Positions 45,188 to 61,946 of a DNA stretch of 64,000 nucleotides are shown piece after piece. The notes under the pieces were generated by a model. The model was given only the letters and a program-made list of their open reading frames with translations. It was not told the DNA's origin and ran no database searches. Location of the stretch: positions 3,484,001 to 3,548,000 of the forward strand of contig NZ_FO538765.1 in NCBI RefSeq assembly GCF_000968135.1. Reading direction: 5' to 3'. Positions within the stretch are counted from its first letter, which is position 1; each line of letters starts with the position of its first letter. The DNA is from Magnetospira sp. QH-2. Its GTDB lineage: Bacteria > Pseudomonadota > Alphaproteobacteria > Rhodospirillales > Magnetospiraceae. A program made the translations under genes and the position numbers.

Positions 45188-45310
45188 CAACGGCGGACCT
45201 CCTGACAACCGGTTGCATTTTGAACCAGGAAGCATGGCCTGTCCAATGACTGTTCCTCCGGTCCCCGCCTTGGGTTACACTCGCCGCAGACTCACCGATG
45301 GGACCCATTC

Positions 45311-48738: not shown

Positions 48739-50658
48739 ATGAAACTGTCCGGCCTTCTTTGCTCTTTGTCCGTCCTGGCCCTGATCGGGTTGGGCGGCCC
48801 CAAGGCGTCCGCAGCCGATGCGGATGCCGTCGCGGTCATTGTCGGCAACGGTCAGTACAGCCACCCGGACATTCCGTCGGTGGATTTTGCCCATCGCGAC
48901 GCCCAGGCCATGCACCGCTTCGTGCGCGACGTCCTGGGGTTCCGCGAGGAAAACATCTTATTGCTCACCGACGCCTCTCAGGCACAGATGGAATCCACCT
49001 TTGGGCGCCAGGGGAATCCGCGCGGCAAGGCCTATCAGTATATCCGCCCCGATAAATCCGATCTGTTCGTCTTTTACTCCGGCCATGGCCTGCCCAGTCA
49101 GGACCAGCAACGGCGCTACCTATTGCCTACCGATGCCGATTTGGCCACCGTCGATATCAACGGCTATCCCCTGGACGTGCTCTACGACAATCTATCGCAG
49201 TTGGGAGCCCGCTCGGTCACGGTGATGGTCGATGCCTGTTTCTCCGGCGGCAGCCATCGGGGTCCACTGATCAAGGGGGCGTCAGGGGTGAAGATCATTC
49301 CCAAGGATGAGCCAAACCCCACCTCCTCGCTGACCGTGCTCACCGCCGCCTCGGCCGACCAATTGGCCAGTTGGGACGAAGAGGCCGAGCATGGCCTGTT
49401 CACCGAATACCTGCTGCGCGCCCTTTATGGCGCCGCCGACCAAAAGGGTCACGGCAATGGCGACGGCCAGATAACCCTGCAAGAGGTCAAGGCCTACCTG
49501 GACGATGAAATGCGCTACAAAGCCCGCCGCGCCTATAACCGGGAACAGGTGCCGACGGTGATCGGAGCGCCGGATCTGGTGCTGGTGGCAGCAGTGGACG
49601 GCACCTTTGCCAAACGACCGGATTTGCCGCGCAGCCCGCAATCGCTCATCGGCGAGCCGGTGTTGGATCCCATGGACCTGGAGATGGAATCGGTGACCAC
49701 CAGCAATGTGCGCGCCGGGCCGGACCTGCGGTCTTTGCGGGTGGGCATGCTGCCCAAGGGCACCAAGGTGAAAGTGACAGGCAAAGTCGTCGACCGACCC
49801 TGGTTCCTGGTGGAACGCCAGGGAGACCGCATGGGCTATGTCTATGCCTCATTGCTGCGCGAGCCGGTTCCGGAGCCGATCCTAGTTGAACCGCCGGTGG
49901 TCGAACCGCCCGCCCCAACCGTGGAAACCCCAGACGAGGCCGTGGAGGCTTTGGAAGACCGCCTCAAACAGCTGGAAGCGGAAATGGAATATCGAAGCCG
50001 CGAAGGATCGATGCCCGAGGATCCGCCGCCCCTGCCTCGATATGGGGATGAAATGGACTTCGAACGCCTCCCGCCACCGCCGTCCCGACCAGGTTTCAAT
50101 CCGCCTCGACGCCCGCCGCCGGGAGGTCAGGTTGCCCACCGCCCGCCGCCCAGGCGCCCCAATGGCGACAAGATCCGCCCCTTGATGCGGTTGCGCGAGA
50201 CCCTCGACGAGATGGCCCAGATCCTGGTGCGCCAGAACTATATCGAACGAGTCGAGGTTCCGGTGGATTGTCCCGGCCCCGACGATGGCAAGTGTATTGC
50301 CGAAGGCTCCAGCGCCTTGTTCTATGGCCAGATCACGCCCCTGCCCCGAAGCTGCACGCTCAAGGTTCAGGCGACCTTCGAGCATGACCGCCTGATCCGG
50401 GCCGATGGCAGCCGCAAAGGCACCTATGTGCGCGATCGCAAGGTCTCCCTCAATCTGTTCAACAAGAACAAAGTCCGTGACAAGACCCTGACCATCAAGT
50501 CGCAGACCGAAGGGCAGCTGTTGGCCGTGGAACACTACCTGTTCGGCAAGGCTCGCTTCATCGACAAGGATGACAGAGACCGCTTCGCCCGCCTGGCCCG
50601 AGAAGCAAACCGGCTGTGCCGCACCATTCCCCTGATCGCCAACCGGCAGAATCGCTAA
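48739..50658 (+). CDS. Secreted caspase-like (peptidase C14) protein with SH3 domain
   Basis: Start set at ATG 48739 (MKLSGLLCSLSVLALIGLGG); a GTG four codons upstream is possible. The 639-residue product has a signal peptide (about 1-25), a caspase p20-type domain (about 30-260) with catalytic His116 in FYSGHG and Cys167 in VDACFSGG, an acidic loop GHGNGDGQITLQE within it, and an SH3-type fold (about 315-370; SNVRAGPDLRSLRVGMLPKG). A coiled segment and Pro-rich linker (380-480) lead to an unrecognised C-terminal domain with paired Cys. Caspase-like bacterial proteins cleave after Arg/Lys and often occur with DUF4384, which is encoded at 56.1 kb. Confidence 0.9.
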   Translation: MKLSGLLCSLSVLALIGLGGPKASAADADAVAVIVGNGQYSHPDIPSVDFAHRDAQAMHRFVRDVLGFREENILLLTDASQAQMESTFGRQGNPRGKAYQYIRPDKSDLFVFYSGHGLPSQDQQRRYLLPTDADLATVDINGYPLDVLYDNLSQLGARSVTVMVDACFSGGSHRGPLIKGASGVKIIPKDEPNPTSSLTVLTAASADQLASWDEEAEHGLFTEYLLRALYGAADQKGHGNGDGQITLQEVKAYLDDEMRYKARRAYNREQVPTVIGAPDLVLVAAVDGTFAKRPDLPRSPQSLIGEPVLDPMDLEMESVTTSNVRAGPDLRSLRVGMLPKGTKVKVTGKVVDRPWFLVERQGDRMGYVYASLLREPVPEPILVEPPVVEPPAPTVETPDEAVEALEDRLKQLEAEMEYRSREGSMPEDPPPLPRYGDEMDFERLPPPPSRPGFNPPRRPPPGGQVAHRPPPRRPNGDKIRPLMRLRETLDEMAQILVRQNYIERVEVPVDCPGPDDGKCIAEGSSALFYGQITPLPRSCTLKVQATFEHDRLIRADGSRKGTYVRDRKVSLNLFNKNKVRDKTLTIKSQTEGQLLAVEHYLFGKARFIDKDDRDRFARLAREANRLCRTIPLIANRQNR

Positions 50659-50684
50659 TTGCGCCATAAGGAGCGACGGTGGGG

Positions 50685-51107
50685 TCAGTTCGAACTGGCC
50701 TTCTTGGCGGCGGGGTAAAGGTGCTCGGATTCCGCCACCACCCGATCCCACACCAGATCGACCATTTCCCTGGTCTCATCGAGAAACTGGCCGTGGTCGC
50801 CCACATGCAATCCGTTCCGCCACCACTTTTTCGCATACTTGCTGAAAATCCGTTTGATCTCCCGCTCGCCTTCGAGGAACCGCTTGGCGATGGACGGCGC
50901 CTCCTCTTCTGAACCTGCGAGCAGCACGGGATAGATATGAACCCCATTCATGGCAAAGTGGTTGGTGACGGCATCCACATAGCGCTGAAAAATCTCGCTA
51001 CAAATGGCGGTGTCGCAGATTTCCCGGTCTTCCACCAGGTTTACAAGCACCTTCGCCAACTCAGAGATCTCGTGGTTTTCCCGATGCAGTTTCTCAAACG
51101 GTATCAT
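50685..51107 (-). CDS. Hemerythrin-like domain protein
   Basis: A 140-residue all-helical protein with His pairs spaced as in hemerythrin four-helix bundles: LHRENHEI near the N-terminus, NHFAMNGVHIYPVL near residue 50, GDHGQFLDE near 105 and SEHLYP near 130. It would bind a di-iron centre and sense or carry O2 or NO, or handle iron. The start has AGGAGGGG. It is on the opposite strand to the surrounding cluster and looks unrelated to it. Confidence 0.8.
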   Translation of the reverse strand: MIPFEKLHRENHEISELAKVLVNLVEDREICDTAICSEIFQRYVDAVTNHFAMNGVHIYPVLLAGSEEEAPSIAKRFLEGEREIKRIFSKYAKKWWRNGLHVGDHGQFLDETREMVDLVWDRVVAESEHLYPAAKKASSN

Positions 51108-51286
51108 CGTCCCCTCCTAAAGAAATAGTTTTCGCGCAGAATGCCGACCGGGCAATAGGGCGCGCAGGTGTGCGTTTCTCAGACGCCTTGACCAAATCTA
51201 CCATACATGGCGGTACAATAAACGTTTTTGGTTATGAGCCAGTCGCATTCGAATCATGCATGAAGGCTGAAGGCAGCGGGAATCCA

Positions 51287-51318
51287 CAAAAAAACCCGGG
51301 CCGAAGCCCGGGGTTTTT
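51287..51318 (-). terminator. Rho-independent terminator with UUCG tetraloop
   Basis: A 7-bp GC stem (CCCGGGC/GCCCGGG, 51295-51312) closes a UUCG loop in the minus-strand RNA and is followed by seven T residues. It lies about 20 bp after the stop of the glycine-zipper gene. On the plus strand the same stem is followed by five T residues, so it may work in both directions. Confidence 0.9.
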
Positions 51319-51337
51319 CCTTGTCGTCCGAATACGC

Positions 51338-51778
51338 TCAGTCGTCCCAGCGGTCGCGATACCATCCGCGCTTCCATCCGCGGCCCCGATAGGCCTTTTT
51401 CGACTTGCCCTTATAAACCACCACCCGCTTGGCCGGACGAGACTTTTCCACAATCACCACGCGCTCCACATACCGCGGGCGTTCGACCACCACGACTTTG
51501 CGCGGGGCAGGGCGATAGGCAACCGCGCGGGTCCGTCTCGGCGGATCGATCTGTTCATTGCTGATGGCGTAGCCAAAGCCCGCGCCGAGCAACGTTCCGG
51601 CGGCGGTGGCGGCCAACTTGCCGTCACCCTGGCCGATCTGAGAGCCGAGCAGCCCCCCGGCGGCGGCCCCGATCAGGGTACCGGGCTGCAGGAATCCATC
51701 GGCCTTGGCACCGGTAAACGGCGCGGCGGCGATCAGGGCGGCGGTCGCCAGGGCGGCCAGTTTCTTGGTCAAGGTCAT
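51338..51778 (-). CDS. Glycine-zipper (2TM, 17-kDa antigen-like) envelope protein
   Basis: A 146-residue protein with a signal peptide (about 1-26, ending TGAKA), then the double glycine zipper GTLIGAAAGGLLGSQIGQGDGKLAATAAGTLLGAGFGYAIS (described here by its ends: residues 34-72), as in Rickettsia 17-kDa surface antigen proteins. The C-terminal half is Arg- and Val-rich (VVVVERPRYVERVVIVEK) and very basic. Start with AAGGAGA. It is monocistronic and ends at a strong terminator. Confidence 0.85.
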   Translation of the reverse strand: MTLTKKLAALATAALIAAAPFTGAKADGFLQPGTLIGAAAGGLLGSQIGQGDGKLAATAAGTLLGAGFGYAISNEQIDPPRRTRAVAYRPAPRKVVVVERPRYVERVVIVEKSRPAKRVVVYKGKSKKAYRGRGWKRGWYRDRWDD

Positions 51779-51852
51779 GATCGGTCTCCTTGGTTTCAGT
51801 CGATGCCAGGGTAATGGAGCGGCCAGAGCCGGTTTTTCCGTTCATCGAAAAT

Positions 51853-51881: not shown

Positions 51882-51918
51882 CGATCCGATTTTCCATTCG
51901 CAACAGGGAGACCCTGTG

Positions 51919-52836
51919 ATGAAACATTCCTTGATCCATCTGACCCTCGCCGGCTTGCTCGCCGTTTCCGCCGCCGCGACCGCCCCCCATGCCCAGGCTG
52001 CCGACCGACAGGCTGGACCGCCTTCGCGCATTTTGGTGCTGGGCCAGGATGGCGGGCCGGACATGCCGCGCCGGGATTCCGTGCCCTATCGCATTCTCAC
52101 CGAACGGCTGAGCGCCGGTCTCGACCGGGACGGCTACAAGGTGTTCCAGGAAAGCGACCGCAGCCGCGACCGGCGTGATACCGCCAATGTGCGACGCAAC
52201 GCCCAACAGGCCATCGCCGCCGCCCAGCACCTCAAGCGCCCGGCCATGGATATGGCGGTGGTGCTCTCGGTGCGCCCGGAAGTGGTCAAGCGAAAGATCG
52301 ACGGCAAGAAAAAAGCCAAGGTGATGACCGTCCGCCTGACTGGCCAGTTGGTGGATCTGCCCAGTGGTCAGGTCCTTGATACCGTCGCCCTGCGCGCTGT
52401 CTCCGACAGCCGTTTGGAGCGGGATTGCAACAAAGGCTGCAAGACCCGCAAGGCGGTGCGCCTGACCCGTCGCCTGGCCGATGACTTCACCGAAGAAGTG
52501 GCTGCAAGGCTGGCCAAGTCCGTGGCCTGGAAAGACGAGGATGCCAAAGGCTATTCCGTGGTGTTGCAGGATTTCCGGCCCAAGGAACTCAAGCGCATGA
52601 TCCGCACCCTGGACGACTACAGCGACCGATTGGACTACTGGTCCGTGGGGCGCACCGAACGCAGCCGTATCCTGTGGGTGGAGACCGCCGCCAAGCCGCG
52701 TCAGATCAAGCGCGCCATCAACCGGCTGCTGGACAAGTCCGGCCTGGAAGCCCGCGTGATCCGGTCCGACCGGGGCTTCACCATCATCCGCGCCCGTCAT
52801 ACCCGCCTCGCCATCGACCCATGGCGCAAGGGCTAA
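51919..52836 (+). CDS. Exported protein of unknown function, first gene of envelope cluster
   Basis: A 305-residue protein with a signal peptide (LIHLTLAGLLAVSAAATAPHAQA, cleavage near 28). GGGAG stands 8 bases before ATG 51919; GTG 51916 is also possible. Residues 35-185 look like an alpha/beta domain (RILVLGQDGG, MAVVLSVRPEVVKRK, VRLTGQLVDLPSGQVLD). Two Cys (CNKGC) follow near 172-176. The C-terminal part (about 205-290) has a short repeated unit seen as FRPKELKRMIRTL and AKPRQIKRAINRLL, suggesting two related domains. No family recognised. It is preceded by the shared 29-bp motif, and the next gene begins 13 bp after its stop. Confidence 0.7.
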   Translation: MKHSLIHLTLAGLLAVSAAATAPHAQAADRQAGPPSRILVLGQDGGPDMPRRDSVPYRILTERLSAGLDRDGYKVFQESDRSRDRRDTANVRRNAQQAIAAAQHLKRPAMDMAVVLSVRPEVVKRKIDGKKKAKVMTVRLTGQLVDLPSGQVLDTVALRAVSDSRLERDCNKGCKTRKAVRLTRRLADDFTEEVAARLAKSVAWKDEDAKGYSVVLQDFRPKELKRMIRTLDDYSDRLDYWSVGRTERSRILWVETAAKPRQIKRAINRLLDKSGLEARVIRSDRGFTIIRARHTRLAIDPWRKG

Positions 52837-52849
52837 AGGAGCTTCGGTC

Positions 52850-53278
52850 ATGATCCACGGCACTCCCAACAATGCCATGGCGGAAATCGCCCTGGCCCTG
52901 GCCATGGGCTTCTTCTCCATCATGGTGTTGACCCTGGTCTCCATGGGCGGCGGGCTGGTGGCTTCCGCCGATCTCCCCCTGGCCGATAGCGGCGCCGCCC
53001 TGGGCAAGACCCAGACGGACTCCGCGCAACAGGCCAGCGGCCCCGCCGTTCCCCGGGATTCCGTGGTGATCTACCACAAGGACCAGTTTTATGACGGCGG
53101 CCTGAAACCCCTTGATCCGGCCAGTCTGGCCGGACGTGAGCGGGTGGTGCTGGCCGTCGATCCCGACCTGCCCATGGCCCGGGCTTTGAAGGCCCGGGAC
53201 CAGATTCCCGTCGCATCGCTCACCATGGCACCGCTGGATGACCGCTGGCGCCAAGCTCTAAAGGAGAAGCAGCCATGA
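52850..53278 (+). CDS. Small single-helix inner-membrane protein of envelope cluster
   Basis: A 142-residue protein with a cytoplasmic stub of 10 residues, one hydrophobic helix (MAEIALALAMGFFSIMVLTL, about 10-29), and a periplasmic part of about 110 residues. The topology resembles MotB/ExbD-type stator partners, but the membrane Asp of those families is not obvious (Glu12 is the only acid in the helix). AAAGGAG precedes the ATG. The stop overlaps the lytic transglycosylase start by ATGA. Confidence 0.65.
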   Translation: MIHGTPNNAMAEIALALAMGFFSIMVLTLVSMGGGLVASADLPLADSGAALGKTQTDSAQQASGPAVPRDSVVIYHKDQFYDGGLKPLDPASLAGRERVVLAVDPDLPMARALKARDQIPVASLTMAPLDDRWRQALKEKQP

Positions 53279-54081
53279 CCCCCACCTGGATCCGCAACAG
53301 TCTGTTGCTTTTCGCCCTCATCGGTTTCTGGCCGGGATCGGCCCAGGCCATCGTCACTCCCGACCGGGCCGAGGTTAAACGCATGATCATCCAAGAAGCC
53401 GCCCGGACCCGCGTACCGGTGGCTCTGGCCCTGGCCCTGGCCAAGGTGGAATCCGATTTCAATCCCAAGGCGCGCAGCAAGGCCGGCGCCCGGGGCGTCA
53501 TGCAGATCATGCCCAAGACGGCCAAAGGCGAGTTCGACCTCAGCCCCAACCATCTGTGGGACGCCCGGACCAATATCCGCACGGGTCTGCAATTCCTCGA
53601 ACAGCTCTATGATCAATACGGCGGCCAATGGAATCTGGCCCTGTCCCACTACAACGGCGGCACCCTGCCCGGTTACCCCGGCGCGGCACGGGCCCATGAT
53701 TTCAACAAGGGCTATGTGCGCCAGGTTTTGAAGTGGCACGGAGTCTATCTCGAACAGGCGCTGATCTGGCGCGAGGAACAGCCCGTGGCGCGATCCAAGG
53801 CCGATGCCGAGCGCCCCCGCTATCAACTCGAAGACGACTGGTCCGACGAACGTCCGGCCCGCCTGGTGGTGGAACGCTGGCAGCCCCCCTATGAAGAGGA
53901 GTCGGAAGAGCAAGTGGTGGAGATCATCATCGAAGACGATTTTGACTTTGATCGTCCCCCGCCGCCGCCCCGTTTCGAGGCCCGCGACCGTTGGGACGAC
54001 GATAAGGAGCGCCGCTTTCGACGCCCGCCACCGCGCCGGGGAGGACGCCATCACCACCGCCCGCCACGGCATCGGTTCTAG
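53275..54081 (+). CDS. Periplasmic lytic transglycosylase (SLT domain)
   Basis: A 268-residue protein with a signal peptide (about 1-25, ending SAQA) and an SLT goose-lysozyme-like domain (about 35-150). The catalytic Glu59 is in AKVESDFNPKARS, followed by GARGVMQIMPKTA and ALSHYNGG. It cleaves peptidoglycan to make a 1,6-anhydro end. The C-terminal 110 residues are acidic and then Pro- and Arg-rich. In the cluster it may open the wall for a trans-envelope complex, as in secretion and conjugation systems. ATGA overlap with the preceding gene. Confidence 0.9.
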   Translation: MTPTWIRNSLLLFALIGFWPGSAQAIVTPDRAEVKRMIIQEAARTRVPVALALALAKVESDFNPKARSKAGARGVMQIMPKTAKGEFDLSPNHLWDARTNIRTGLQFLEQLYDQYGGQWNLALSHYNGGTLPGYPGAARAHDFNKGYVRQVLKWHGVYLEQALIWREEQPVARSKADAERPRYQLEDDWSDERPARLVVERWQPPYEEESEEQVVEIIIEDDFDFDRPPPPPRFEARDRWDDDKERRFRRPPPRRGGRHHHRPPRHRF

Positions 54082-54090
54082 GACATTTGC

Positions 54091-55605
54091 ATGACCCTCC
54101 CAAGGCTCATAGAATTCATCGGACAAAGGCCGACGAAGGCAGGGGGAACCGTGGACGAAGCAACCGACAGGCTGTTGCGGGCGGGGGGCGAAAGCCCGCT
54201 GATCGAGGATTTCCGCGCCGTTGCCGAATCCACGACCCCTGCCGGTCGTCTGCGCCATGCGCCCCGTCCGACCCTGGATTGGCTGTCCCGCTTTGTGGTC
54301 GGACAGGCCGGGGGCCCGCATAAGGATGCGCCGCTCTATGAACTCTGCCATCTGGTGCTGGCCCTGGGCGGAGACGGCGGCCGCCGGGCTCAAGTGCTGT
54401 TGGACCCCGATGGCGTGACCGCGAGTCGCTCCCGCGCCAGCTTTGCCGATCACCCAGGCGCCGATGAAGACGGGGTGACAGTCGAGGGTGACGAAGGCCC
54501 CTTTACCATCCGTTTCGGGCGCATGCCGATCCTGGCCGCCCTATACGAGTTTCTCTGCGGCATGGAGGGCTACGGCTTCTATCCCCAGCTGGAAGAGATT
54601 CTCGCCGGGATCACCGGTCCGGCCGATGTGCGCCCCGCCGCCAACCAGCTGTCCAGCCATCTGCGGCAATATCGAAAGAAGAATCTGCCCTCGGCCCGCA
54701 GCGAAGGAAAATTCACCACCATCTACGGATTTCTGCGCGACCGAAGCCCGGAAAACAGGCTTTCCATCGACGACTCCGCGATTTTGGACTTCTGGTGCCT
54801 CCATTGCCAAGGCAAGGAATTCAGAGGATATCGCGCCGTGTTTGATCAGTTCACCCGTTTCATGGAGTCATTGGAAGAGGCCGGCGCCCGCCGCGCCGTC
54901 GACGAGGCCGCGCCCTTGGGCACCGACCGCGAGGCCGGGGAGTTGGATCCCGCCGACACGGATCAGTCCGATCCCGGTGGGCCTGGTTGGACGTCCCCCC
55001 TGGCCGCCTTCGACCAACCGCCCCTGAACGAAATCAAGTTTCTCAAGGGCAGCAGCGAACGCAAGCCCATGGAAGCCCTGATGGATCATGGGCCCCATGC
55101 CCTGCACCTGCCGCTCGCCTTTCTGCGCTACGAGGTTTTCGGACAGGTACAGGCGGGCATCACCAATGATCTACAAGTTGGGCGCGGTGCCGAGGCCGTG
55201 GCCAGGCGCATCACCTGCGACGAGGCCGAATCCTATGGCGCCAGAATGGCGACCGTCGAAAAGCTCGCCGCCCACGTGGACCAACTGCAAAAGGCCGCCC
55301 TGCACGTTCTCGCCTCCGCCCCCTCTCCCGCCATACCCGCCAACGATGAAAAAATCGTCCCCTTGGAGATGGCGGCGCGGGCATACAAGACCCTGACCCG
55401 CAAGGGCTTCACCGCAGCCCCCGACGACGACAGCCGGGCCACGTTCCGTCAGGCCGCCCCGGCCCTGGTGGCGGTCGGGACCCTGCTGCGCGGCTACCTG
55501 AGCGCATTGACCCAATTGGACGGTCACGGTCTGGACCGCCATTTCCAAACCGACCGCGAGACCTTCAGCGAGCGCTTCCGGGCGCTGTACGGAGACCCCC
55601 AATGA
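54091..55605 (+). CDS. Large cytoplasmic protein of unknown function in envelope cluster
   Basis: A 504-residue protein without signal peptide or membrane segment. ATG 54091 has a weak site; GTG 54151 (20 codons in) has AGGGGG 5 bases upstream and is an alternative start. Visible stretches are APLYELCHLVLALGGDGGRRAQVLL, FGRMPILAALYEFLCGMEGYGFYP and a central acidic linker (about 275-310) separating two mainly helical halves. No catalytic motif is seen. Its stop overlaps the next start by ATGA. Together with the next two genes it forms a tightly coupled trio. Confidence 0.75.
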   Translation: MTLPRLIEFIGQRPTKAGGTVDEATDRLLRAGGESPLIEDFRAVAESTTPAGRLRHAPRPTLDWLSRFVVGQAGGPHKDAPLYELCHLVLALGGDGGRRAQVLLDPDGVTASRSRASFADHPGADEDGVTVEGDEGPFTIRFGRMPILAALYEFLCGMEGYGFYPQLEEILAGITGPADVRPAANQLSSHLRQYRKKNLPSARSEGKFTTIYGFLRDRSPENRLSIDDSAILDFWCLHCQGKEFRGYRAVFDQFTRFMESLEEAGARRAVDEAAPLGTDREAGELDPADTDQSDPGGPGWTSPLAAFDQPPLNEIKFLKGSSERKPMEALMDHGPHALHLPLAFLRYEVFGQVQAGITNDLQVGRGAEAVARRITCDEAESYGARMATVEKLAAHVDQLQKAALHVLASAPSPAIPANDEKIVPLEMAARAYKTLTRKGFTAAPDDDSRATFRQAAPALVAVGTLLRGYLSALTQLDGHGLDRHFQTDRETFSERFRALYGDPQ

Positions 55606-56147
55606 TCAGCTACCAAACCACCCCCGACCTCATCGCCCGCGCGACCACCTGGTTCCAGGACCGGGAGGCAGCCGACGAGCTCCTGGCGCGGGCCCGGGAA
55701 CAATCCACCGCGCGGCCATCACCGGCGCGGCTTCAGGCCTATGCCACCGGACGACTTCCCTGGCCGCAGGACGATCTGGAACGGGCACTGGGCAGCCATC
55801 TGCCCTTGCGTCGAGCCTATATGATCATGGTCAAGGCAGCCTCTTCCCACCATCTGCCCCGCGCCCGCGCCGCCAGCAGCGACACCCTGCCCACCCGCGA
55901 GGGGGATCGGGTCCGCCTCAGCCTTCGGGAATCCCGCGCCGAGCCGGATCAGCTGTTCCTGATCGTCGAGATCAGCGACCGGGTGCCCGAGGGTCCCTCC
56001 ACCCTGATCATCCTCGATAGCGAGGACAACTCGACGCAAGTGGCTTTGCCCGAACCACGCAACGGCGTGGCCCAGGTCATTCTCGACCGCGCTTCGGAGG
56101 CCGTCCGCCTGCTCGCCGACCCACGCAGCGAGGCCTTTATCCGGTGA
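55602..56147 (+). CDS. Small protein of unknown function with an anti-sigma-like N-terminus
   Basis: A 181-residue soluble protein. Residues 30-75 (LQAYATGRLPWPQDDLERALGSHLPLRRAYMIM) resemble the helical part of anti-sigma domains that lack zinc ligands. Residues 95-170 are beta-rich (VRLSLRESRAEPDQLFLIVEISDRV; TLIILDSED). The resemblance is weak and no sigma gene is nearby. Overlaps on both sides (ATGA upstream, GTGA downstream) imply fixed stoichiometry with its neighbours. Confidence 0.65.
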   Translation: MISYQTTPDLIARATTWFQDREAADELLARAREQSTARPSPARLQAYATGRLPWPQDDLERALGSHLPLRRAYMIMVKAASSHHLPRARAASSDTLPTREGDRVRLSLRESRAEPDQLFLIVEISDRVPEGPSTLIILDSEDNSTQVALPEPRNGVAQVILDRASEAVRLLADPRSEAFIR

Positions 56148-57262
56148 GTAAATACGCCGTCTTCGCCGCCACCACCGACGGGCCGGTGCGCATCGAGCGC
56201 ATCACCGCCGAACCGGCGCCGCAATCGATGATCTGTCTGGGGCGCACCTCCGAGGTGCTTTCCATCAGCGGCGGCTATGACGACTTCGTCCGTCCGGGCA
56301 GCGGCGTCATTCTGCGCGAATTCGGTCCCGATGAGGAAGACGCCTTCCGCCTTGATATCTCCGGCCCCATCTCGTCGGGGCGTTCTTGGCAATTGGCCGT
56401 CTTTGCCGCCCATGCGCTGCGCGCCGCCGAGAACGCCGAACTGGCACCGGTGGAACAGGCCGATCGGGTCCTGTGGCTGACCGGCACGGTGGATTATGAC
56501 CTAAATGTCGGCCCGGTGGATCATGTGCCGCAAAAAATCGAGGCCAGCCGTACCTTGTTCGCGGCCTGGGCCGAGAGAGACATTCCGGTGATTGCCGCCT
56601 GCGCAGGGGCAGAGGATGCCGAAGCCCTGCGCCGAGCCGGTCTTCCAGGACAGGTGGAGGTCGTGGCATTGACCACCACCACCGACCTGCTCGCCCGTCT
56701 GCCCCTGGGCCCCACGGATCTGCGCAAAGCCAAGGAGACGAAGACCGTCACGCGGTCTCGGCGGCCATTTCCCTGGGGCTTTGTCCTGGGTAGTTTGGTG
56801 GTGGCCGGGGCCCTGGCCTTCCTCTGGCACAAGCCGTCCATCGAAACGGATCCGGGTCTCCCGGACACGACCCCGGCGGCGGCCATCCAATTGACCAGCC
56901 CACGCGGCGAAAATCCCACCTATCATTTCGGCGAGAAGCTGGATCTAAAGTTAACCCTGGGCCGCGATGCCTGGGTGAACTGTTTCTATCATCAAGCCGA
57001 TGGCAGCACCCTGCGCATTCTGCCCAACAGCCGTTTCCCCGAGGCCCATTTGACCGGCGGACGATCCTATGACCTGCCCGGCGGCAACCTGTTTCCGTTC
57101 GAGCTGGAAGTGGCCGCCCCGGCGGGCGAGGAGAAAATCACCTGCTATGCCGCCGATCGCAAAATCGATTCGGATCTGTCCGACGGCCTAGATAATCAGC
57201 TACAAGGCCTGGCCGGAACGCAAATCCATGCCGCAACATTGAGTCTTTCGGTACGCCCCTAA
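56144..57262 (+). CDS. Lon-like (S16) domain, membrane helix and DUF4384 fusion
   Basis: A 372-residue protein read from GTG 56144 (GTGA overlap). Residues 1-190 resemble a Lon protease catalytic fold: ISGPISSGRSWQLAVFAAHAL (Ser81 at the Lon Ser position) and LTGTVDYDLNVGPVDHVPQKIEASR, then DIPVIAACAGAEDAEALRR. The Lon dyad Lys aligns with Pro129; Lys131 is two residues later, so activity is doubtful. A membrane helix follows (about 211-228), then a DUF4384 domain (about 245-350; DAWVNCFYHQADGSTLRILPNSRF). DUF4384 is often attached to caspase domains, linking this gene to the caspase at 48.7 kb. Topology: Lon-like domain in the cytoplasm, DUF4384 in the periplasm. Confidence 0.7.
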   Translation: MSKYAVFAATTDGPVRIERITAEPAPQSMICLGRTSEVLSISGGYDDFVRPGSGVILREFGPDEEDAFRLDISGPISSGRSWQLAVFAAHALRAAENAELAPVEQADRVLWLTGTVDYDLNVGPVDHVPQKIEASRTLFAAWAERDIPVIAACAGAEDAEALRRAGLPGQVEVVALTTTTDLLARLPLGPTDLRKAKETKTVTRSRRPFPWGFVLGSLVVAGALAFLWHKPSIETDPGLPDTTPAAAIQLTSPRGENPTYHFGEKLDLKLTLGRDAWVNCFYHQADGSTLRILPNSRFPEAHLTGGRSYDLPGGNLFPFELEVAAPAGEEKITCYAADRKIDSDLSDGLDNQLQGLAGTQIHAATLSLSVRP

Positions 57263-57267
57263 AAAAA

Positions 57268-57296
57268 CCGCCTCTCACCCCTCCATAGCCTCGGCA
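57268..57296 (+). promoter_or_regulatory. Shared 29-bp upstream motif, copy B
   Basis: Same motif as 51853-51881, in the same orientation, 25 bp before the ATG of the lipoprotein gene at 57321. It starts 6 bp after the preceding stop, in the longest gap inside the gene run, so it likely marks a second transcription start in the cluster. Confidence 0.55.
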
Positions 57297-57320
57297 GGTT
57301 ATCAAACAGAGGGTGAGACC

Positions 57321-57890
57321 ATGTCACAATCAGCAATCCGTCCCCGCCGTCCCGCCGCTTTGGCCCTGGTTGCCATCCTGGGCGCCGTGGGCCTTTCCGC
57401 CTGTGTTACCCAGCCCCCCGCCATGGATGCCGGGATCGGCTTCCGCGAGGCCCGCTTCGCCGAAGTTACCGCCATGCGCGACTATCGCAAATGTCGCGAC
57501 GACGCCCTGACCCTGGACCGACAAGGCAGGGAAACCGGCGATGCGGCCAAGTATCTGGCCAGCGCCAAGCTGCTGGAAACCTGTGAATCCGATCTGGGCC
57601 CCGAAGCCGCCGGCATTGCCCGCGACGAACGCCTACAGGCCTATGCCCTGAGCATACAGAATTTCCTCAAGGGTGGTGATCTGACCAGCGCGCGAAGCAA
57701 TCTGCAACGGCTGTCCCAGGCCCATCCCGGCGTGGACCTGTATTACCCCGATGGCTCGTCTTTCGTGGATACCATGGAAGTGCTGCTGGGCCTGCGCCCG
57801 GATCACGCCGTGGCCCGTTTCTCCGACGCCAACGTCAATCGTGACCTGAAGGGCGAAATGCGCCGGGTCCAGTATTGGCAGAGCCACTAA
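57321..57890 (+). CDS. Lipoprotein of unknown function in envelope cluster
   Basis: A 189-residue protein with a lipoprotein signal (lipobox LSAC, Cys at 28). The mature part has helical stretches rich in Arg and Glu (RFAEVTAMRDYRKCRDDALTLDRQGRETGDAAKYLASAKLLETCESDL in outline, residues 45-92) that look TPR-like, with two more Cys. GAGGGTGAG precedes the ATG. Preceded by motif copy B and followed 15 bp later by the coiled-coil gene. Confidence 0.75.
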   Translation: MSQSAIRPRRPAALALVAILGAVGLSACVTQPPAMDAGIGFREARFAEVTAMRDYRKCRDDALTLDRQGRETGDAAKYLASAKLLETCESDLGPEAAGIARDERLQAYALSIQNFLKGGDLTSARSNLQRLSQAHPGVDLYYPDGSSFVDTMEVLLGLRPDHAVARFSDANVNRDLKGEMRRVQYWQSH

Positions 57891-57905
57891 ACCAAGGAGG
57901 CCGTC

Positions 57906-58775
57906 ATGAACCGCTCCCCCAAATCCCTGTTGGCGGCCCTGATGTTGGGCACCGCCTTGACCCTGACCGCCGCGCCGGTGCTGGCCAACCCCAGTTGGCA
58001 TCCGCAGTCCTCGGAACGGCTGATCAAGCTGCCGCCAAGCTATCTGCAAAAATCGCTGGATAATGATTTCGCCCGCTCCGCCTTGGGTCAGGCCCTGACC
58101 ACCACCGAACAGGATCTGTCGTTGAAAACCGGCACCCTGGGTGATCTGCAACGGGCCATCGACACCGCCGAAGGCGAGGTGCGCCTGGATCTGCGTCACC
58201 AGTTCCTGGCCGAAAAGCGGGAATACCTGAACCTGATTTCCGAGCGCAACGAGATGCGTCGCAAGCACCTGAAGGTCAAGCGCAAGCTGTTCGACCGCAT
58301 GATGGACAAGTTGGCCGAGGAGGCCGACGATCCTTCCGGGACCCGCCAGCAGTTGATTGCTCAGCAGCAGGCCGCCCGCAAGCGGTTCCAAACCTCCATG
58401 GACGTGGTCGATCAGCGGATCTTCGAGACCAGCATGGCCACCGAGAGCAAGTATGCCTCGCAATATTCCCAAAACATGCAGGCCATGGAAAAACTGCTCG
58501 CCCGCATCAAGCATCACGACATGAACCAAATGGCCGAGGATGACGATGGTCAGCCGCTGACCCGCAAGGAACACCTGCGGCGCATGGCCTCCGACATTCA
58601 GACCGAACTGGCCATGCTCGACCAGGAAGAGACCATGATCGGCTATATGGCCAAGCTGGTCGCCCTGGATGCCATGGCCCTGACCGAAGACGGCCTGGAC
58701 GCCGAGCTGGCCGATTCCGACGTGGCCACCGTCGCCTCGCCGGTCACCAATCTCAACTTCTTCCTCGACAACTGA
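57906..58775 (+). CDS. Periplasmic coiled-coil protein of envelope cluster
   Basis: A 289-residue protein with a signal peptide (ALMLGTALTLTAAPVLA, cleavage near 27) and a long charged helical region (about 60-255) with heptad character (RREYLNL, RRKHLKVKRKLFDRMMDKLAEEADD). No catalytic motif. It could span the periplasm or form a ring, as do adaptor proteins of trans-envelope machines; this is inference. AAGGAGG precedes the ATG. Confidence 0.7.
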   Translation: MNRSPKSLLAALMLGTALTLTAAPVLANPSWHPQSSERLIKLPPSYLQKSLDNDFARSALGQALTTTEQDLSLKTGTLGDLQRAIDTAEGEVRLDLRHQFLAEKREYLNLISERNEMRRKHLKVKRKLFDRMMDKLAEEADDPSGTRQQLIAQQQAARKRFQTSMDVVDQRIFETSMATESKYASQYSQNMQAMEKLLARIKHHDMNQMAEDDDGQPLTRKEHLRRMASDIQTELAMLDQEETMIGYMAKLVALDAMALTEDGLDAELADSDVATVASPVTNLNFFLDN

Positions 58776-58792
58776 AGCCCCGGAGAAAACCC

Positions 58793-59182
58793 ATGACCCG
58801 CAAACTTCTGCTCACCTCCGCCATTGCCCTTGGACTCCTGGCCTCAACCGCCACTGCCTGGGCCGATACTCTGGAAACCCTTGAACGGGAACGGGCCGTC
58901 ACCGTCGATTTGATGCTCGACCCGGAACTGACCGTGCCCGACCGCATGGGTAAGCTGGCCACTGCCCAGCGCCGCCTGGTGGATCTGGAACGCATGGTCT
59001 TGCGCGACGACAGCCTGCGCGGCAAGAACACCCGTGCCGTGCGCCAAGCGTTCAAGAATTACGACATCACCTTCCTGGCCCATGGCTCGGTGGAAAAGAA
59101 CCGCGCCATGATCGACAACTGGCTCGATCAATTCGGCGTCAGCACCGAGAGCCTGATGGCCGCCAAGGTCGGGAGGCGCTGA
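58793..59182 (+). CDS. Small periplasmic protein of envelope cluster
   Basis: A 129-residue protein with a signal peptide (KLLLTSAIALGLLASTATAWA, cleavage near 24) and a helical mature part (TLETLERERAVTVDLMLDPELTVPDRMGKLATAQRRLVDLERMVL). No family recognised. GGAG lies before the ATG. The next start is 1 bp after its stop. Confidence 0.65.
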   Translation: MTRKLLLTSAIALGLLASTATAWADTLETLERERAVTVDLMLDPELTVPDRMGKLATAQRRLVDLERMVLRDDSLRGKNTRAVRQAFKNYDITFLAHGSVEKNRAMIDNWLDQFGVSTESLMAAKVGRR

Positions 59183-59183
59183 C

Positions 59184-59690
59184 ATGCCAGCCCTCGCCAC
59201 CATCGCAGATAGCGGCTCGCGGGCCCTGTCCGCCCTGATCGGCACGGCGACCATGGGGCTTGCCGTGGCCGTGTGGGTAACCGCCGACGATCCGGACGTG
59301 CTGGCCGAACGCACCGTGGAACTGTTCGGCGGCACCTTCTTGGTGTTGTTGGCCGGACTTTTGTTCCTCAGCCTGTTTGCCTGGGTGCGCATGGGTCAGA
59401 GCCGTTTCGATCCCACCGCCCGCGCCCTGTGGCTGGAGACCGGCCTGCATGGGGCCAGCGGAGTGGCCACCCTGGCCCTGACCTATACCCTGTTCGGGAT
59501 CAGCCTGGGCATCGGCACCCTGGCCGACCAGCCGCTCAATCCGGATACGGTGGGATCCATCATCCAGGACCTGACCCGGCATTTCTCCATGGCCTTTCTG
59601 ACCACCGTGGTCGGCCTGCCCACCTCCGCCCTGTTGCGGGCATTGCTGCTCATCACCGAAAAGCGTCTCGACGCCAAGGAGGCCCTATGA
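59184..59690 (+). CDS. MotA/TolQ/ExbB-like proton-channel membrane protein
   Basis: A 168-residue protein with four hydrophobic helices (about 14-33, 47-68, 88-115, 128-155). The last two, GVATLALTYTLFGISLGIG and HFSMAFLTTVVGLPTSALLRALLLI, follow the pattern of the final pair in MotA/TolQ/ExbB proteins, where a small-residue-rich helix and a Thr-containing helix line a proton path. It lacks the large cytoplasmic domains of MotA. GGGAGG precedes the ATG, and the stop overlaps the next start by ATGA. It would energise a partner protein; the two Pro-rich proteins next door are the obvious candidates. Confidence 0.65.
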   Translation: MPALATIADSGSRALSALIGTATMGLAVAVWVTADDPDVLAERTVELFGGTFLVLLAGLLFLSLFAWVRMGQSRFDPTARALWLETGLHGASGVATLALTYTLFGISLGIGTLADQPLNPDTVGSIIQDLTRHFSMAFLTTVVGLPTSALLRALLLITEKRLDAKEAL

Positions 59691-60262
59691 AGTTCCTTCT
59701 GTTCAATGTTGTTGTTGGCGGTGCCCTGGTCTATCTGATGGCCTTTGGCGGCCCCACCGGCATGCCGCTGCCCCGTGAGCTGTTTCCCGATCGGCCCGAA
59801 AAGGTCGCCATTGAGCAACCGGCCCCCGAGCCGGTCCGGCAAAGGATCGCCCGGCCGGTGGCCGAACCCGTGATCGAGCCGACTCCCGTTATGGAGCCCG
59901 TTGCCAAACCGATCGCCCAACCCCAACCCGTTTCCCAACCCGTTCCCCAACCCGTTCCCATGCCCGATCCCCAGCCTATTCCCCAGGCCTTACCACAGGC
60001 CTTACCCCAGGCAGTGCCCCAGAAGCTCGCCGAACCGGTGGTCGAACCCGCCCACCAACCGGCTATTGCACCGCCGCCGCTGCCGGAGCCGGTCAGTGTG
60101 GCTCGGCTTGATCCGAAACCGGCGCCCATGGGGGAATCCCCCGGCATCTTCGACGCGCCGGAACCGGAAACACCGAAGATTTCGGCCCGTGAACGACGCC
60201 GGTCCCTTCAAGACCTGGTGGCCGACATGGAACGGCTCTATGTCGACAAGATGGCGAGGTAA
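59687..60262 (+). CDS. Pro-rich single-helix membrane protein (TonB/TolA-like topology)
   Basis: A 191-residue protein starting at ATG 59687 (ATGA overlap). A short N-terminal helix (FLLFNVVVGGALVYLMAFGG, residues 3-22) is followed by about 135 residues rich in Pro, Val, Glu and Gln (repeats of PVPQP, PQALPQ), a rigid periplasmic spacer like that of TonB, then a short helical charged end (ARERRRSLQDLVADMERLYVDKM). No TonB C-terminal fold is visible. The gene lies in a longer open frame that begins at 59273 inside the previous gene, but the overlap and site support 59687. Confidence 0.7.
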   Translation: MKFLLFNVVVGGALVYLMAFGGPTGMPLPRELFPDRPEKVAIEQPAPEPVRQRIARPVAEPVIEPTPVMEPVAKPIAQPQPVSQPVPQPVPMPDPQPIPQALPQALPQAVPQKLAEPVVEPAHQPAIAPPPLPEPVSVARLDPKPAPMGESPGIFDAPEPETPKISARERRRSLQDLVADMERLYVDKMAR

Positions 60263-60267
60263 CGGCC

Positions 60268-61296
60268 ATGACCACCGCTCCCGTTTCCGCCCGCCTGTCC
60301 ATGATCCTCAGCCTCGGTATCGGCATCGTGCTGATCGCCCTGGCCCAGGTCCCGGACCGGATGCACAAGGAACGGGAATCGGTGCGTCTGGATCTGCCCG
60401 AGGATAAACCGCAACCGGTCGCCGAGACGGTTACACCGGTGGTCCGGTTGCCCGCGCCACCGGCGCCTGCGCCAGTATCCGCGCCAGTATCCGCGCCAGT
60501 ATCCGCACCGGTATCCGCGCCGGTCCCAGTCGCGACCATCACCCCGCCGCCTCCCGTGGCGGAACCAACGCCCAAGCCGTCGGCTGCAAGGGCCGAACCC
60601 GTTGCCCAACCGGCTCCGCCGCCCGCCATCGATCCCAGACCTCAATCAAAGCCAAGGGCCAAACCGAAGACCAAGCCGATCCCGCGAGCGGTGGCCATTC
60701 CGGCCCACCGACCAGCCCCCAAAACCGAGCCGCGCCCCCAACCGGCACCGGCACCGGTCGTTCAGGCGACCTCCGCGGATATCCGTACCGGGCGAACCCT
60801 GCTGCGCGTCTTGGAACATGGTCGTGGTCCGGAGATCGAGATTGCCTGGCCGTCCGGATCCCGGTCCCGCGACCAGTTGTTCGAGGCGCTGACCTCTTGC
60901 TACGGCATGCGGGTAGCGGTGATGGATGGCGCGGGGAATTTGTTCACCAGCGAACAGACCCCCGGCGAGCGGTGGGAAATCAATACCGACCGCTATAGCG
61001 GCTTCCTGCGTCAGCCCGCCGGACGACCGGCCTCGGCGGAGAGAACCGAGGTCCGGAAGATCAAACAGCATCACGACCTATATAGTGGGGACACGATTAG
61101 AATTTTCCCACGCCGGGTGGATGCCGCCCTATTGGGTGGCCTGCGCCAGCAATTGGGCAAGGATTACATGAATACCGGACGCATCCGTGCGACTTACCGG
61201 CTTGAGGGAGGCCGGGTCCGGGTCGGCGGTCTCTCGGCCGATGGCCTTGCCTTGCCCGGTCGCATCGACCTGGGCCGCTGCGGGAGGAGACCATGA
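60268..61296 (+). CDS. Pro-rich anchored protein with a C-terminal globular periplasmic domain
   Basis: A 342-residue protein: N-terminal helix (about 10-27; LSMILSLGIGIVLIALAQV), a Pro/Ala spacer of about 140 residues with five tandem APVS/APVP units (bases 60469-60528) and Lys-rich patches, and a globular domain from about 170 to 342 (TGRTLLRVLEHGRGPEIEIAWP; GRIRATYRLEGGRVRVGGLSADG). Architecture resembles TonB/TolA/ZorB-type transducers, without recognisable homology. GAGG precedes the ATG. Its stop overlaps the lipoprotein start by ATGA. Confidence 0.7.
   Translation: MTTAPVSARLSMILSLGIGIVLIALAQVPDRMHKERESVRLDLPEDKPQPVAETVTPVVRLPAPPAPAPVSAPVSAPVSAPVSAPVPVATITPPPPVAEPTPKPSAARAEPVAQPAPPPAIDPRPQSKPRAKPKTKPIPRAVAIPAHRPAPKTEPRPQPAPAPVVQATSADIRTGRTLLRVLEHGRGPEIEIAWPSGSRSRDQLFEALTSCYGMRVAVMDGAGNLFTSEQTPGERWEINTDRYSGFLRQPAGRPASAERTEVRKIKQHHDLYSGDTIRIFPRRVDAALLGGLRQQLGKDYMNTGRIRATYRLEGGRVRVGGLSADGLALPGRIDLGRCGRRP
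60469..60528 (+). repeat. Five 12-bp tandem repeats inside the Pro-rich gene
   Basis: Three exact units of GCGCCAGTATCC (60469-60504) are followed by GCACCGGTATCC and GCGCCGGTCCCA. They encode APVS four times and then APVP. The exact first three units could expand or contract by slippage and change spacer length. Confidence 0.9.
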
Positions 61297-61946
61297 CAAA
61301 AACCCTGCTCCCGCTGATGCTGGTGATTTTGCTCGCTGGCTGCATGCAGACCGCCTATCGCCCGCTGACCGAGCGCGACGACAAGAGCGCGCAAGAACCG
61401 CTTGCCCGGGAGGTTCTTTATCACCTGGACAGGGACTATTATCGCGACCCTCCAACCTGCGTCTTCGTGCTCCCCACCTTGGGCCTTGAGCACCCCGCCT
61501 TGGCCCGCCGGATCGCTGATTCCCTGGCGCAGCACTTGAGTGGTCGCGTCGAGCGGGTCGTCTCTCCCTTGACCCGGCAACGGATCGAACGCAAGCGGGG
61601 CATAGATCTGGAAAACTCCGGCGACCGACGCCGCTTCGCCCTTGAACAACGGTGCCCGTTCCAGGCCCGGGCGGTCCTCGGCCATGCCGAAGATGCCTAT
61701 ATGCTCGTATGGAGCGAGCGTCAGGTGGGTCTCCGACTGGAGCTTGCCCGGGCCTTTGATGACAAGATTCTTTGGCGAGCCGCCCACACGGCCCGGCGCG
61801 GGGATGGCGGACTTCCCTTGTCGCCCCTGTCGGTGGTGGCCAGCGCGGCAACCGCGGGAGCTTTCCATGCCGATGGCGAAATCATGGACTCCTTGATCGA
61901 CGACGCTTTGCGCCGCATGCTACGCACGCTCCCCGATAGTCGCTAA
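61293..61946 (+). CDS. Lipoprotein of unknown function, last gene of envelope cluster
   Basis: A 217-residue protein with a lipoprotein signal (lipobox LLAGC, Cys at 17). The mature region has an alpha/beta look (TCVFVLPTLGLEHPALARRIADSLAQHLSGRVERVV; RAVLGHAEDAYMLVWSERQVGLRLELARAFDDKILWRAAHTA), resembling periplasmic lipoproteins that assemble at the outer membrane. ATGA overlap with the preceding gene. It ends the plus-strand run; 116 bp separate it from the aldolase gene. Confidence 0.75.
   Translation: MTKTLLPLMLVILLAGCMQTAYRPLTERDDKSAQEPLAREVLYHLDRDYYRDPPTCVFVLPTLGLEHPALARRIADSLAQHLSGRVERVVSPLTRQRIERKRGIDLENSGDRRRFALEQRCPFQARAVLGHAEDAYMLVWSERQVGLRLELARAFDDKILWRAAHTARRGDGGLPLSPLSVVASAATAGAFHADGEIMDSLIDDALRRMLRTLPDSR

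Follow-up and report, generated by a model that had tools for sequence, protein, structure and literature searches.

The thirteen plus-strand genes g1-g13 of Magnetospira sp. QH-2, which lie in the 64,000-nucleotide stretch of DNA analyzed here (the window), are read, with confidence somewhat better than even, as encoding one machine that spans the inner membrane, the wall and the outer membrane, an ion-driven force transducer with a proteolytic arm and a Tol-like role in the envelope. The order of the genes found is kept with few exceptions in 37 related loci, a conservation far beyond chance, and the genes fall into two modules, which are conserved jointly and both occur where they are seen apart. 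The system seems to be without a name so far. The ion drive of the machine, put as proton power in the first-pass annotation, and its role for the cell are inferred.

Gene order and co-occurrence

The run extends from 51916 to 61946 as a tight operon (Table 1), with five four-base stop/start overlaps, four of them ATGA (53275, 55602, 59687 and 61293) and one GTGA (56144), and with remaining intergenic gaps of 1 to 58 bases. The layout reported in the first-pass annotation, a gene for a caspase-like protein with SH3 domain followed after a two-gene break by plus-strand genes with such overlaps, was found again, except that the run comprises thirteen genes and not the twelve counted then. Its two modules are g2-g6 (52850-57262) and g7-g13 (57321-61946). 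The product of g1 gave chance-level matches only in Pfam and the PDB, and 27 distinct sequences of it were collected over all stretches searched. The glycine-zipper gene within the break is possibly accessory to the system.

Table 1. Genes of the locus, with positions in the window and number of the 37 related loci in which each was matched
Gene	Position	Strand	Product	Loci
caspase/SH3	48739-50658 (frame opens at 48727)	+	Secreted caspase-family protein with SH3 domain; accessory, linked	
hemerythrin-like	50685-51107	-	Between the caspase gene and the plus-strand run	
glycine zipper	51338-51778	-	Glycine-zipper (17 kDa antigen type) protein, Pfam 8.1e-9; recurrent neighbour	9
g1	51916-52836	+	Secreted protein, no assigned family; recurrent, not universal	10
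g2	52850-53278	+	Single-pass inner-membrane protein, candidate ion-carrying (B-type) subunit; hydrophobic segment 8-42	
g3	53275-54081	+	Secreted lytic transglycosylase, Pfam SLT 9.1e-25	26
g4	54091-55605	+	Large protein, no membrane segment found	22
g5	55602-56147	+	Small protein, no membrane segment found	23
g6	56144-57262	+	Predicted N-terminal Lon-type (S16-like) domain, one membrane helix (208-229), C-terminal DUF4384 (Pfam 1.7e-15)	
g7	57321-57890	+	Lipoprotein; lipobox pattern in 29/31	33
g8	57906-58775	+	Secreted helical/coiled-coil protein (by sequence and alignment)	34
g9	58793-59182	+	Small secreted helical protein, basic residues at end (by sequence and alignment)	34
g10	59184-59690	+	Predicted stator-type channel subunit, almost without cytoplasmic domain; AlphaFold2 pLDDT 84	
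g11	59687-60262	+	Single-pass, Pro-rich middle, conserved C-terminal stretch	30
g12	60268-61296	+	Single-pass, Pro-rich spacer, conserved C-terminal domain	33
g13	61293-61946	+	Lipoprotein in most relatives; lipobox pattern in 23/30	30

Among 199 genomes of one order, g10 and g2 are each present in 26; 27 genomes carry either gene and 25 carry both (the g2 match of one of these, G002, being partial and at a contig edge). Where g2 had not previously been seen beside the channel gene it was recovered in 10 of 12 genomes (in G932 as a 23-residue match only), while in the other two, G455 and G345, it was looked for and not found; in the divergent relative L188 neither g10 nor g2 is detectable. In four genomes (G514, G929, G930 and G575) the modules are demonstrably apart, yet both are present and g2 stands with g3-g6; in G514, where they share one contig, they are about 0.3 Mb from each other. 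Such separation would be expected if g2-g6, as a proteolytic module, and g7-g13, as a module of the envelope, were two independent, often neighbouring systems, a reading that also draws on the two genomes without g2 and on loci L045 and L047-L049, in which g2-g3 accompany g7-g12 and g4-g6 are missing in between. It is nevertheless judged quite improbable, given that 25 of 27 genomes carry both genes and that g2 was recovered in 10 of the 12. Conservation of the neighbourhood, the main test put forward in the first-pass annotation, thus bears out its proposal of one undescribed envelope system, which is strongly supported by gene order, by the re-finding of partners when the modules are apart, by co-occurrence and by the linked caspases.

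The channel subunit and its candidate partners

The model of g10 supports a predicted fold of the pore-forming MotA/TolQ/ExbB/ZorA subunits, with the cytoplasmic domain reduced to a turn, whereas likeness in sequence to these proteins is weak. The earlier description of this product as a MotA/TolQ/ExbB-like channel is supported by the predicted fold and by the PADLOC ZorA2 model, which matched 16 of 16 family members (best E 0.0013; 0.018 for the Magnetospira sp. QH-2 protein), but not by Pfam, in which the QH-2 protein gave no match of this type, or by profile-profile comparison with hhalign, in which g10 and g2 remained undetected against the TolQ, MotA and TolR families (probability at most 3.8). 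A second PADLOC model matched 11 of the 16 members (best 4.8e-4), and only ZorA models matched at all. Pfam MotA_ExbB was matched by 3 of 16 members at a best E of 0.065, below unrelated families such as Abhydrolase_9_N (6/16, best 2.7e-4) and DUF6008 (2/16, best 1.6e-4). Among the best 50 Foldseek matches of the model, 45 are MotA, TolQ, ExbB, ZorA or PomA structures, all at E values of 0.38 or above so that none reached 0.001, and among the 50 listed a ZorAB complex has the highest probability, 0.96, with 80 columns aligned at an rmsd of 1.9. In VIA the model aligned with TolQ at Z 11.0 (rmsd 2.9, 123 aligned) and with ZorA at Z 10.3 (rmsd 2.5, 119 aligned), values to be read beside the Z of 10.7 for an unrelated designed helical protein; the MotA/TolQ/ExbB/ZorA family makes up 21 of the 50 matches listed. 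Hydropathy recovers three of the model's four long helices, and where a cytoplasmic domain was sought before the last two membrane helices, the model has helices 50-72 and 77-115 joined by a four-residue turn. As in channel subunits of this superfamily, Ser/Thr positions of the last two membrane helices are conserved, namely T96 (59/61), T100 (59/61), T102 (60/61) and T140 (61/61).

The likely partner of g10 is g2, which is strongly conserved and had not been singled out in the first-pass annotation. Residues E12, L15, M19, F21, F22 and S31 are each invariant (43/43), and E12 lies near the start of the membrane helix. Nothing relevant was matched in Pfam, in PADLOC (15 g2 relatives) or in the PDB, and hhalign against 25 TolR/ExbD sequences gave a probability of 0.2, with no similarity to ExbD, TolR, MotB or ZorB. 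Known B subunits, as in the 5:2 stator motors, carry an Asp in the membrane helix, and none of g2, g11 and g12 was found to have one conserved there; the helix of g2 has its Glu (43/43), that of g11, encoded directly downstream of g10, has an Asn (N7, 56/56 detected relatives), and that of g12 is poorly conserved and has no conserved acid. E12 of g2 is the best candidate, and a likely one, for the ion carrier. According to excerpts of PMC9389320, the ion-binding site of GldLM is not known.

The lack of a canonical Asp in g2, g11 and g12, the near-complete loss of the g10 cytoplasmic domain and the poorly conserved g12 helix would all suit a complex that spans the envelope as a static scaffold or for export, in which g10 is a stator-derived ring that has lost ion conduction. 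However, the threonines of g10 and the Glu of g2 belong to the best-conserved positions in their families, beyond what a passive anchor would need, and a static complex is considered unlikely.

Both g11 and g12 are single-pass proteins with Pro-rich parts in alignment, as the first-pass description of two transducer-like proteins had it. The C-terminal domain of g12 was modelled at pLDDT 85, and with a best VIA Z of 3.2 no solved fold matched it well; a TolA/TonB C-terminal fold was sought and nothing exceeded this value, though g12 may still have one. The likeness of g12 to TonB and TolA lies in its layout only. The layout as a whole (channel, single-pass proteins, lipoproteins, Pro-rich transducer) might suggest an ordinary Tol or Ton system that has diverged strongly. 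This is very improbable, as no TolB, OmpA/Pal or TonB_C domain is found, a regular pair of a TolQ/ExbB-type gene and, after it, a TolR/ExbD-type gene stands elsewhere in the genome, and the g12 helix does not have the His of the SHLS motif, taken here from the description of the transducer helix in excerpts of PMC12204202 (a His at positions 10-24 occurs in 1 of 57 sequences, at one column).

Proteolytic and envelope parts

In g6 a putative Lon-type Ser-Lys domain is joined to a membrane helix, a reading supported by alignment, in which S81 (41/41) and K131 (40/41) would form the Lon catalytic dyad, and by profile searches: hhalign against a Lon profile gave a probability of 88.8 (E 2.5e-6), and 15 of 19 PDB profile matches are Lon or CalpL/SAVED proteins (best E 0.0054). 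These residues and profiles support the Lon-like assignment made earlier for this product, although Pfam is silent (Lon_C was not reported). Compared with Lon-family (S16) proteases, including CalpL, g6 shares the Ser-Lys pair and the profile matches, but no ATPase domain was found in it, and the domain is followed by a membrane helix and a C-terminal part that varies. For g4 no relevant Pfam match, PDB match or hydrophobic segment was found, and for g5 no Pfam match or hydrophobic segment.

The caspase-like protein (Peptidase_C14 5.9e-16, SH3_3 2.4e-10) scores 59.3 bits against a C14 cut-off of 21.4, contains the motifs SGHG and DACFSG (the His-Cys pair) and is the only C14 match in the genome. 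In 15 of 22 carriers checked, a caspase gene is no more than 10 kb away, where 0.36 would be expected. Pfam likewise confirms the transglycosylase and the DUF4384 protein named before, and the two lipoproteins and the coiled-coil periplasmic protein correspond to g7 and g13, by their lipobox patterns, and to g8, helical by sequence (Table 1). In the sixteen proteins searched at E 1, Pfam reported no OmpA, TonB C-terminal, TolB or helicase domain, in agreement with the absences (Pal included) listed in the first-pass annotation. One relative, L063, has an OmpA-family protein inserted at the locus.

The linked caspases and the CalpL (SAVED-domain protein) matches of g6 also bear on a Zorya-like immune or cell-death sensor, in which the motor would sense damage to the envelope, with the Lon-type domain and the caspase acting as killing or signalling effectors; for it speak further the ZorA models as the channel's sole PADLOC matches and the ZorAB complex as the most probable of the 50 Foldseek matches listed. 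The PADLOC match may show the superfamily only, since ZorA is the sole MotA/ExbB/TolQ-type family in the PADLOC output. Against such a sensor, no ZorB, ZorC, ZorD or ZorE was found among the ten proteins given to PADLOC (g3, g7, g9 and g11 left out) or the 15 g2 relatives, Pfam, in the sixteen proteins, showed none of these either and neither an OmpA nor a helicase domain, and g10 lacks a long tail in the cytoplasm. In addition, the 0.3 Mb between the modules in G514 and the lack of any plasmid match for g8 or g10 are unlike a mobile defence island, and a sensor of this kind is considered unlikely.

Proposed mechanism and relation to known systems

In the preferred reading of one ion-driven machine, a ring of g10 would enclose the membrane helices of g2, with its invariant Glu, and perhaps of g11, with its conserved Asn. 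Ions passing the Glu and the conserved g10 threonines would move this axle, g11 and g12 would transmit the movement across the wall, and the transglycosylase g3 would open the wall locally; the outer-membrane end would be a complex of the two lipoproteins, g7 and g13, and of g8 and g9, which are helical. Limited proteolysis by the arm g4-g5-g6 may control or report the state of the motor, and the caspase may be an optional second protease on the outside. The role would most likely be Tol-like work on the outer envelope, apart from the genome's own TolQR/ExbBD-type pair.

Of the known systems, Zorya ZorAB is nearest or tied nearest to g10 in PADLOC models and predicted fold, and the conserved threonines may be set beside the Ser/Thr ring that excerpts of PMC11890865 describe; unlike Zorya, the locus shows no long ZorA tail, peptidoglycan-binding ZorB or ZorC/D/E and adds trans-envelope and proteolytic parts. 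With Tol-Pal (TolQRA, TolB, Pal, CpoB) it shares a TolQ-like predicted fold, a Pro-rich single-pass transducer, lipoproteins and periplasmic helical proteins, but it has neither a TolB or OmpA/Pal domain nor the SHLS His in g12, and it has its own transglycosylase and putative Lon-type protein. Myxococcus AglRQS, in which AglQ and AglS are both MotB homologues according to excerpts of PMC9389320, offers an analogy in that g2 and g11 might be two B-type partners of a single channel subunit, although the gene set is otherwise different. Another motor-driven transducer family, recently reported in PMC12204202 (excerpts), pairs a TolQ-like motor with a vWA transducer and has a conserved Asp, whereas the present system has a Glu and no vWA domain.

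It is suggested, as a tentative and rather doubtful extension, that this is a categorically new trans-envelope machine, in which a minimal stator ring, driven via the Glu of an axle (g2) encoded in the other module, moves a transducer whose C-domain has no good match among solved folds and is physically linked to a Lon-type protease anchored in the membrane and to a secreted caspase, which would make envelope mechanics and proteolysis one device. The invariant g2 Glu makes the claim of ion drive directly testable. To our knowledge only few kinds of ion-driven stator motors exist (Mot, Ton, Tol, Agl, Gld/Por and Zor). The vWA-type motor is a further addition according to excerpts of PMC12204202. 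If the present reading is true, a further stator motor that brings a wall enzyme, lipoproteins and a proteolytic arm of its own would widen the range of energy transfer to the bacterial outer membrane, and several protein families so far without an assigned function would find a home, among them some DUF4384 proteins and the linked caspases of bacteria.

Gene order and co-occurrence of the two modules

Thirteen plus-strand genes, g1-g13, form a set made up of two modules (g2-g6 and g7-g13) that co-occur and whose products carry conserved residues. The plus-strand run with overlaps described in the first-pass annotation stands, with thirteen genes in place of the twelve counted there; 5' of it lie a secreted caspase with an SH3 domain and two minus-strand genes (hemerythrin-like and glycine-zipper). 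The window covers positions 3484001-3548000 in a 4.02 Mb contig of a two-contig genome of 4.05 Mb. The open frame that follows the run is outside the set, and a promoter and terminator scan gave signal no higher than in shuffled sequences.

Features of the locus and its surroundings (window positions)
Feature	Position	Strand	Remarks
g1-g13 run	51916-61946	+	thirteen genes; five 4-base overlaps; remaining gaps 1 to 58 bases
Module g2-g6	52850-57262	+	g2 single-pass; g3 lytic transglycosylase; g4, g5 no named family; g6 Lon-type/DUF4384
Module g7-g13	57321-61946	+	g10 stator-type channel; g11, g12 single-pass, Pro-rich
Long open frame	starts 62063		downstream of g1-g13; metabolic enzyme-like by eye
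Caspase gene	48739-50658	+	secreted C14 with SH3
IS110-family transposase pair	38592-39674 and 47279-48361	-	equal length, identical Pfam scores; second copy directly upstream of caspase gene
1577-aa sensor-like protein	26949-31682	-	solute-binding, PAS and SpoIIE phosphatase domains; dCache match weak
DUF748 protein	24253-26937		adjoins the sensor-like protein
B12-binding radical SAM protein	43253-45235	-	
Methyltransf_24 gene	46319-47026		near the radical SAM gene

Among 199 genomes of the window's order, 26 have relatives of g10, which are also found on 18 named contigs. Conservation was surveyed at 37 loci (L034-L070) chosen by presence of g10 and searched with all sixteen window proteins; several of them end at contig edges, and L033, with the same match place as L051 on an equally long contig, was left out. 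The L033 contig (HF-Dia15), labelled Methylocystaceae, equals in length and match place contig C113 of G089, a genome of the window's order; its label may be wrong. Within the envelope module g10 is present in all 37 loci (by selection), g8 and g9 in 34 each, g7 and g12 in 33, and g11 and g13 in 30; among g1-g6 the counts are 26 for g3, 23 for each of g2, g5 and g6, 22 for g4 and 10 for g1, and among flanking genes 13 for the caspase, 9 for the glycine-zipper gene and 0 for hemerythrin. Wherever found, g2-g13 stand in the window's order; neighbourhood conservation, which the first-pass annotation had named as the check on its proposal of one envelope system, is thus borne out. The positions of g1 and the caspase vary (L063, L043, L061, L053), and in L034 g9 was not detected before g10. 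Genes g2-g6 are absent beside g7-g13 in L041 and L044 and beside g8-g13 in L043, and four loci (L045, L047-L049) have g2, g3, g7-g10 and mostly g12, without g4-g6. The metagenome-assembled genome SI074_bin97 has two g8-g13 copies, one with (L035) and one without (L043) g2, g3, g5 and g6 nearby, and in L063 two inserted genes stand between the modules, one for an OmpA-family protein with TPR repeats (7671-8597 of that locus) and one for a separate DUF4384 protein (4101-5618).

Module pairing was put to a test that could have failed, using 12 genomes in which g2 had not been seen beside g10 (truly absent there, contig edge, or short stretch fetched). It is present in 10 of the 12, in G932 as a match of 23 residues only, and was not found in the other two (G455, G345). 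In two of the ten (G027, G190) g2 is in its usual place (L211, L212). The modules lie apart in four genomes (G514, G929, G930, G575), by about 0.3 Mb on one contig in G514, with g2 beside g3-g4-g5-g6 in each. A further genome, G931 (among the five covered by L204-L208), gives no verdict on separation because each of its two stretches runs to a contig edge. Across the 199 genomes g2 is found in 26, 25 of them g10 carriers (Fisher's test, 1.7e-29, kinship ignored); g10 occurs without g2 in G045 (81% complete) and g2 without g10 in G180 (partial match, 5.7e-5), and the g2 match in G002 is also partial. The gene order in the 37 loci and this co-occurrence rule out chance neighbours.

The candidate channel and its possible partners

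The AlphaFold2 model of g10 (16 sequences) has four long helices (pLDDT 84), three of them recovered by hydropathy, and supports a predicted channel fold. In Foldseek, 45 of the first 50 rows are MotA, TolQ, ExbB, ZorA or PomA (best E 0.38). VIA gives Z 11.0 for TolQ, 10.3 for ZorA and 10.7 for an unrelated designed protein, with the family filling 21 of 50 rows; since this designed helical protein scores alike, VIA Z was not accepted by itself as proof of family. In PADLOC, g10 members match ZorA models only (one ZorA2 model 16 of 16, best 0.0013; another 11 of 16, best 4.8e-4), and this naming was also set aside as proof because no other MotA/ExbB-type family appeared in the PADLOC output. 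Pfam MotA_ExbB matches 3 of 16 members (best 0.065) and is outscored by the unrelated Abhydrolase_9_N (6 of 16, best 2.7e-4). The PDB profile search of g10 returned nothing naming a function, and hhalign of g10 and g2 with own-genome and class-wide TolQ, MotA and TolR gave no match, reversed alignments serving as null; filtering the class-wide set on motif and length had removed 5 of 30 ExbD-type and 2 of 30 ExbB-type loci. Residues T96, T100, T102 and T140 are nearly invariant. Taken together, g10 likely belongs to the MotA/TolQ/ExbB/ZorA superfamily, its cytoplasmic part reduced to a turn.

Two single-pass proteins are candidate partners of the channel. g2 has one hydrophobic segment in which E12 is invariant (43 of 43), as are L15, M19, F21, F22 and S31 (43 of 43 each), and the Glu is retained in the distant loci L185, L186 and L187. 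The alignments of all families excluded sequences shorter than 70% of the query or lacking a stop, and the residue counts take identical sequences once. By eye g2 resembles ExbD/MotB helices; tool searches gave no such match, and none of the libraries searched (Pfam, PADLOC, PDB profiles) recognised it. g11 has an invariant helix Asn in 56 of 56 detected relatives; the proteins at its place in L185 and L187 are without it and fall below detection by the g11 model. The gene lies directly downstream of g10, and in known motors the B subunit genes directly follow the channel gene. Both g2 and g11 may sit in the g10 ring, for which AglQ and AglS, as presented in PMC9389320, are a possible precedent of two partners of one channel.

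Inner arm, outer parts and caspase

In the N-terminal domain of g6, S81 is conserved in 41 of 41 and K131 in 40 of 41 sequences. hhalign with three own-genome Lon-family sequences gave a probability of 88.8 (the other 59 pairs at most 3.8), and Lon or CalpL/SAVED make up 15 of 19 PDB profile matches (best E 0.0054); Pfam Lon_C was not reported. A putative Lon-type domain is thereby supported at the level of sequence. It is followed by one membrane helix and a variable part, which is DUF4384 in the window; in L063 and L065 DUF4384 is found in a separate gene beside g6. The Lon-like/DUF4384 reading in the first-pass annotation is supported. g7 and, in most relatives, g13 are lipoproteins. In neither g4 nor g5 was a membrane segment or a relative of known function found, nor did the PDB profile search of g4 give a match naming a function.

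g12 consists of a variable membrane helix, a Pro-rich spacer and a C-domain whose conservation extends over about 165 residues. Unlike TolA and TonB, of which an SHLS histidine is described as a feature in PMC12204202, it lacks this histidine in its membrane helix. The C-domain model has pLDDT 85; no solved fold compared with it scored above Z 3.2, and neither TolA, TonB nor any other good match was listed. In NCBIfam its only matches are weak Pro-rich ones, to the MXAN_5187 family (0.033) and to gliding protein GltJ (0.098). The sequences of g8 and g9 suggest secreted, helical proteins; a PADLOC JetC match of g8 (0.0028) was taken as coiled-coil likeness. PDB profile matches of g1 and g13 are at chance level, and nothing naming a function came from Pfam (g1, g2, g4, g5, g7-g13) or NCBIfam (g1, g4, g5, g10-g13).

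Caspase linkage was assessed in 22 carriers chosen for fetched loci and good assemblies, a non-random sample with several of one genus. A C14 match is present in 21 of 22 and within 10 kb of the system in 15, against 0.36 carriers expected by chance if places are random and genomes independent; five carriers (G065, G068, G126, G146, G137) have their matches on different contigs from the system, G450 has them elsewhere, and G449 lacks any. The caspase gene is the sole C14 match of the window's genome. Side and strand vary between families, and at least two of the 13 matches in the 37 loci (L034, L043) cover the SH3 part alone or little more. We read the caspase as a linked accessory. G108 has five C14 matches in one 18-kb stretch (51403-69855), separate from the system-linked one.

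Distribution and working model

A search with the g7 model matched 22 of 387 genomes in the window's class and 11 of 397 in the phylum, the latter comprising the window's own genome, seven outside the class and three weak matches (G618, G806, G875; E 3e-4 to 9.6e-4). The two weak cases that were checked (L189, L190) have no other gene of the set, and all three are therefore uncounted. In the class of one outsider g10 occurs in 1 of 370 genomes, that outsider itself. From these counts the system has a patchy distribution with its centre in the window's class, and among the other genomes searched it is rare; no plasmid matched in searches for g8 and g10. Outside the class most of the set is found in L182-L187 and less in L188. 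L187 shows a rearrangement of the modules, as do L191, L170 and L171 within the class. L188 (G635) holds a divergent version with g3, g4, g6, g7, g8, g9, g12 and a caspase match, g10, g11, g2, g5 and g13 not being detectable; a 415-aa Pro-rich protein with membrane helices by eye follows g9. In L168 (G449) g4 and g6 are each split into several open frames that are single in its relative L169, pointing to decay of this copy or to sequencing errors.

The g1-g13 set is undescribed in the titles and abstracts found in the open-licence PMC literature, and in the text searched of PMC12204202 and PMC12505986 no word begins with caspase or lytic. In a working model, ion flow would drive the machine, g2 and g11 would act as its axle, movement would be transmitted to the outer membrane, and proteolysis would regulate it. 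Elsewhere the window's genome carries a TolQ/ExbB-type and a TolR/ExbD-type gene in succession, together with another four PF01618 genes read as MotA; the g10 system is therefore an addition to these and not a replacement.
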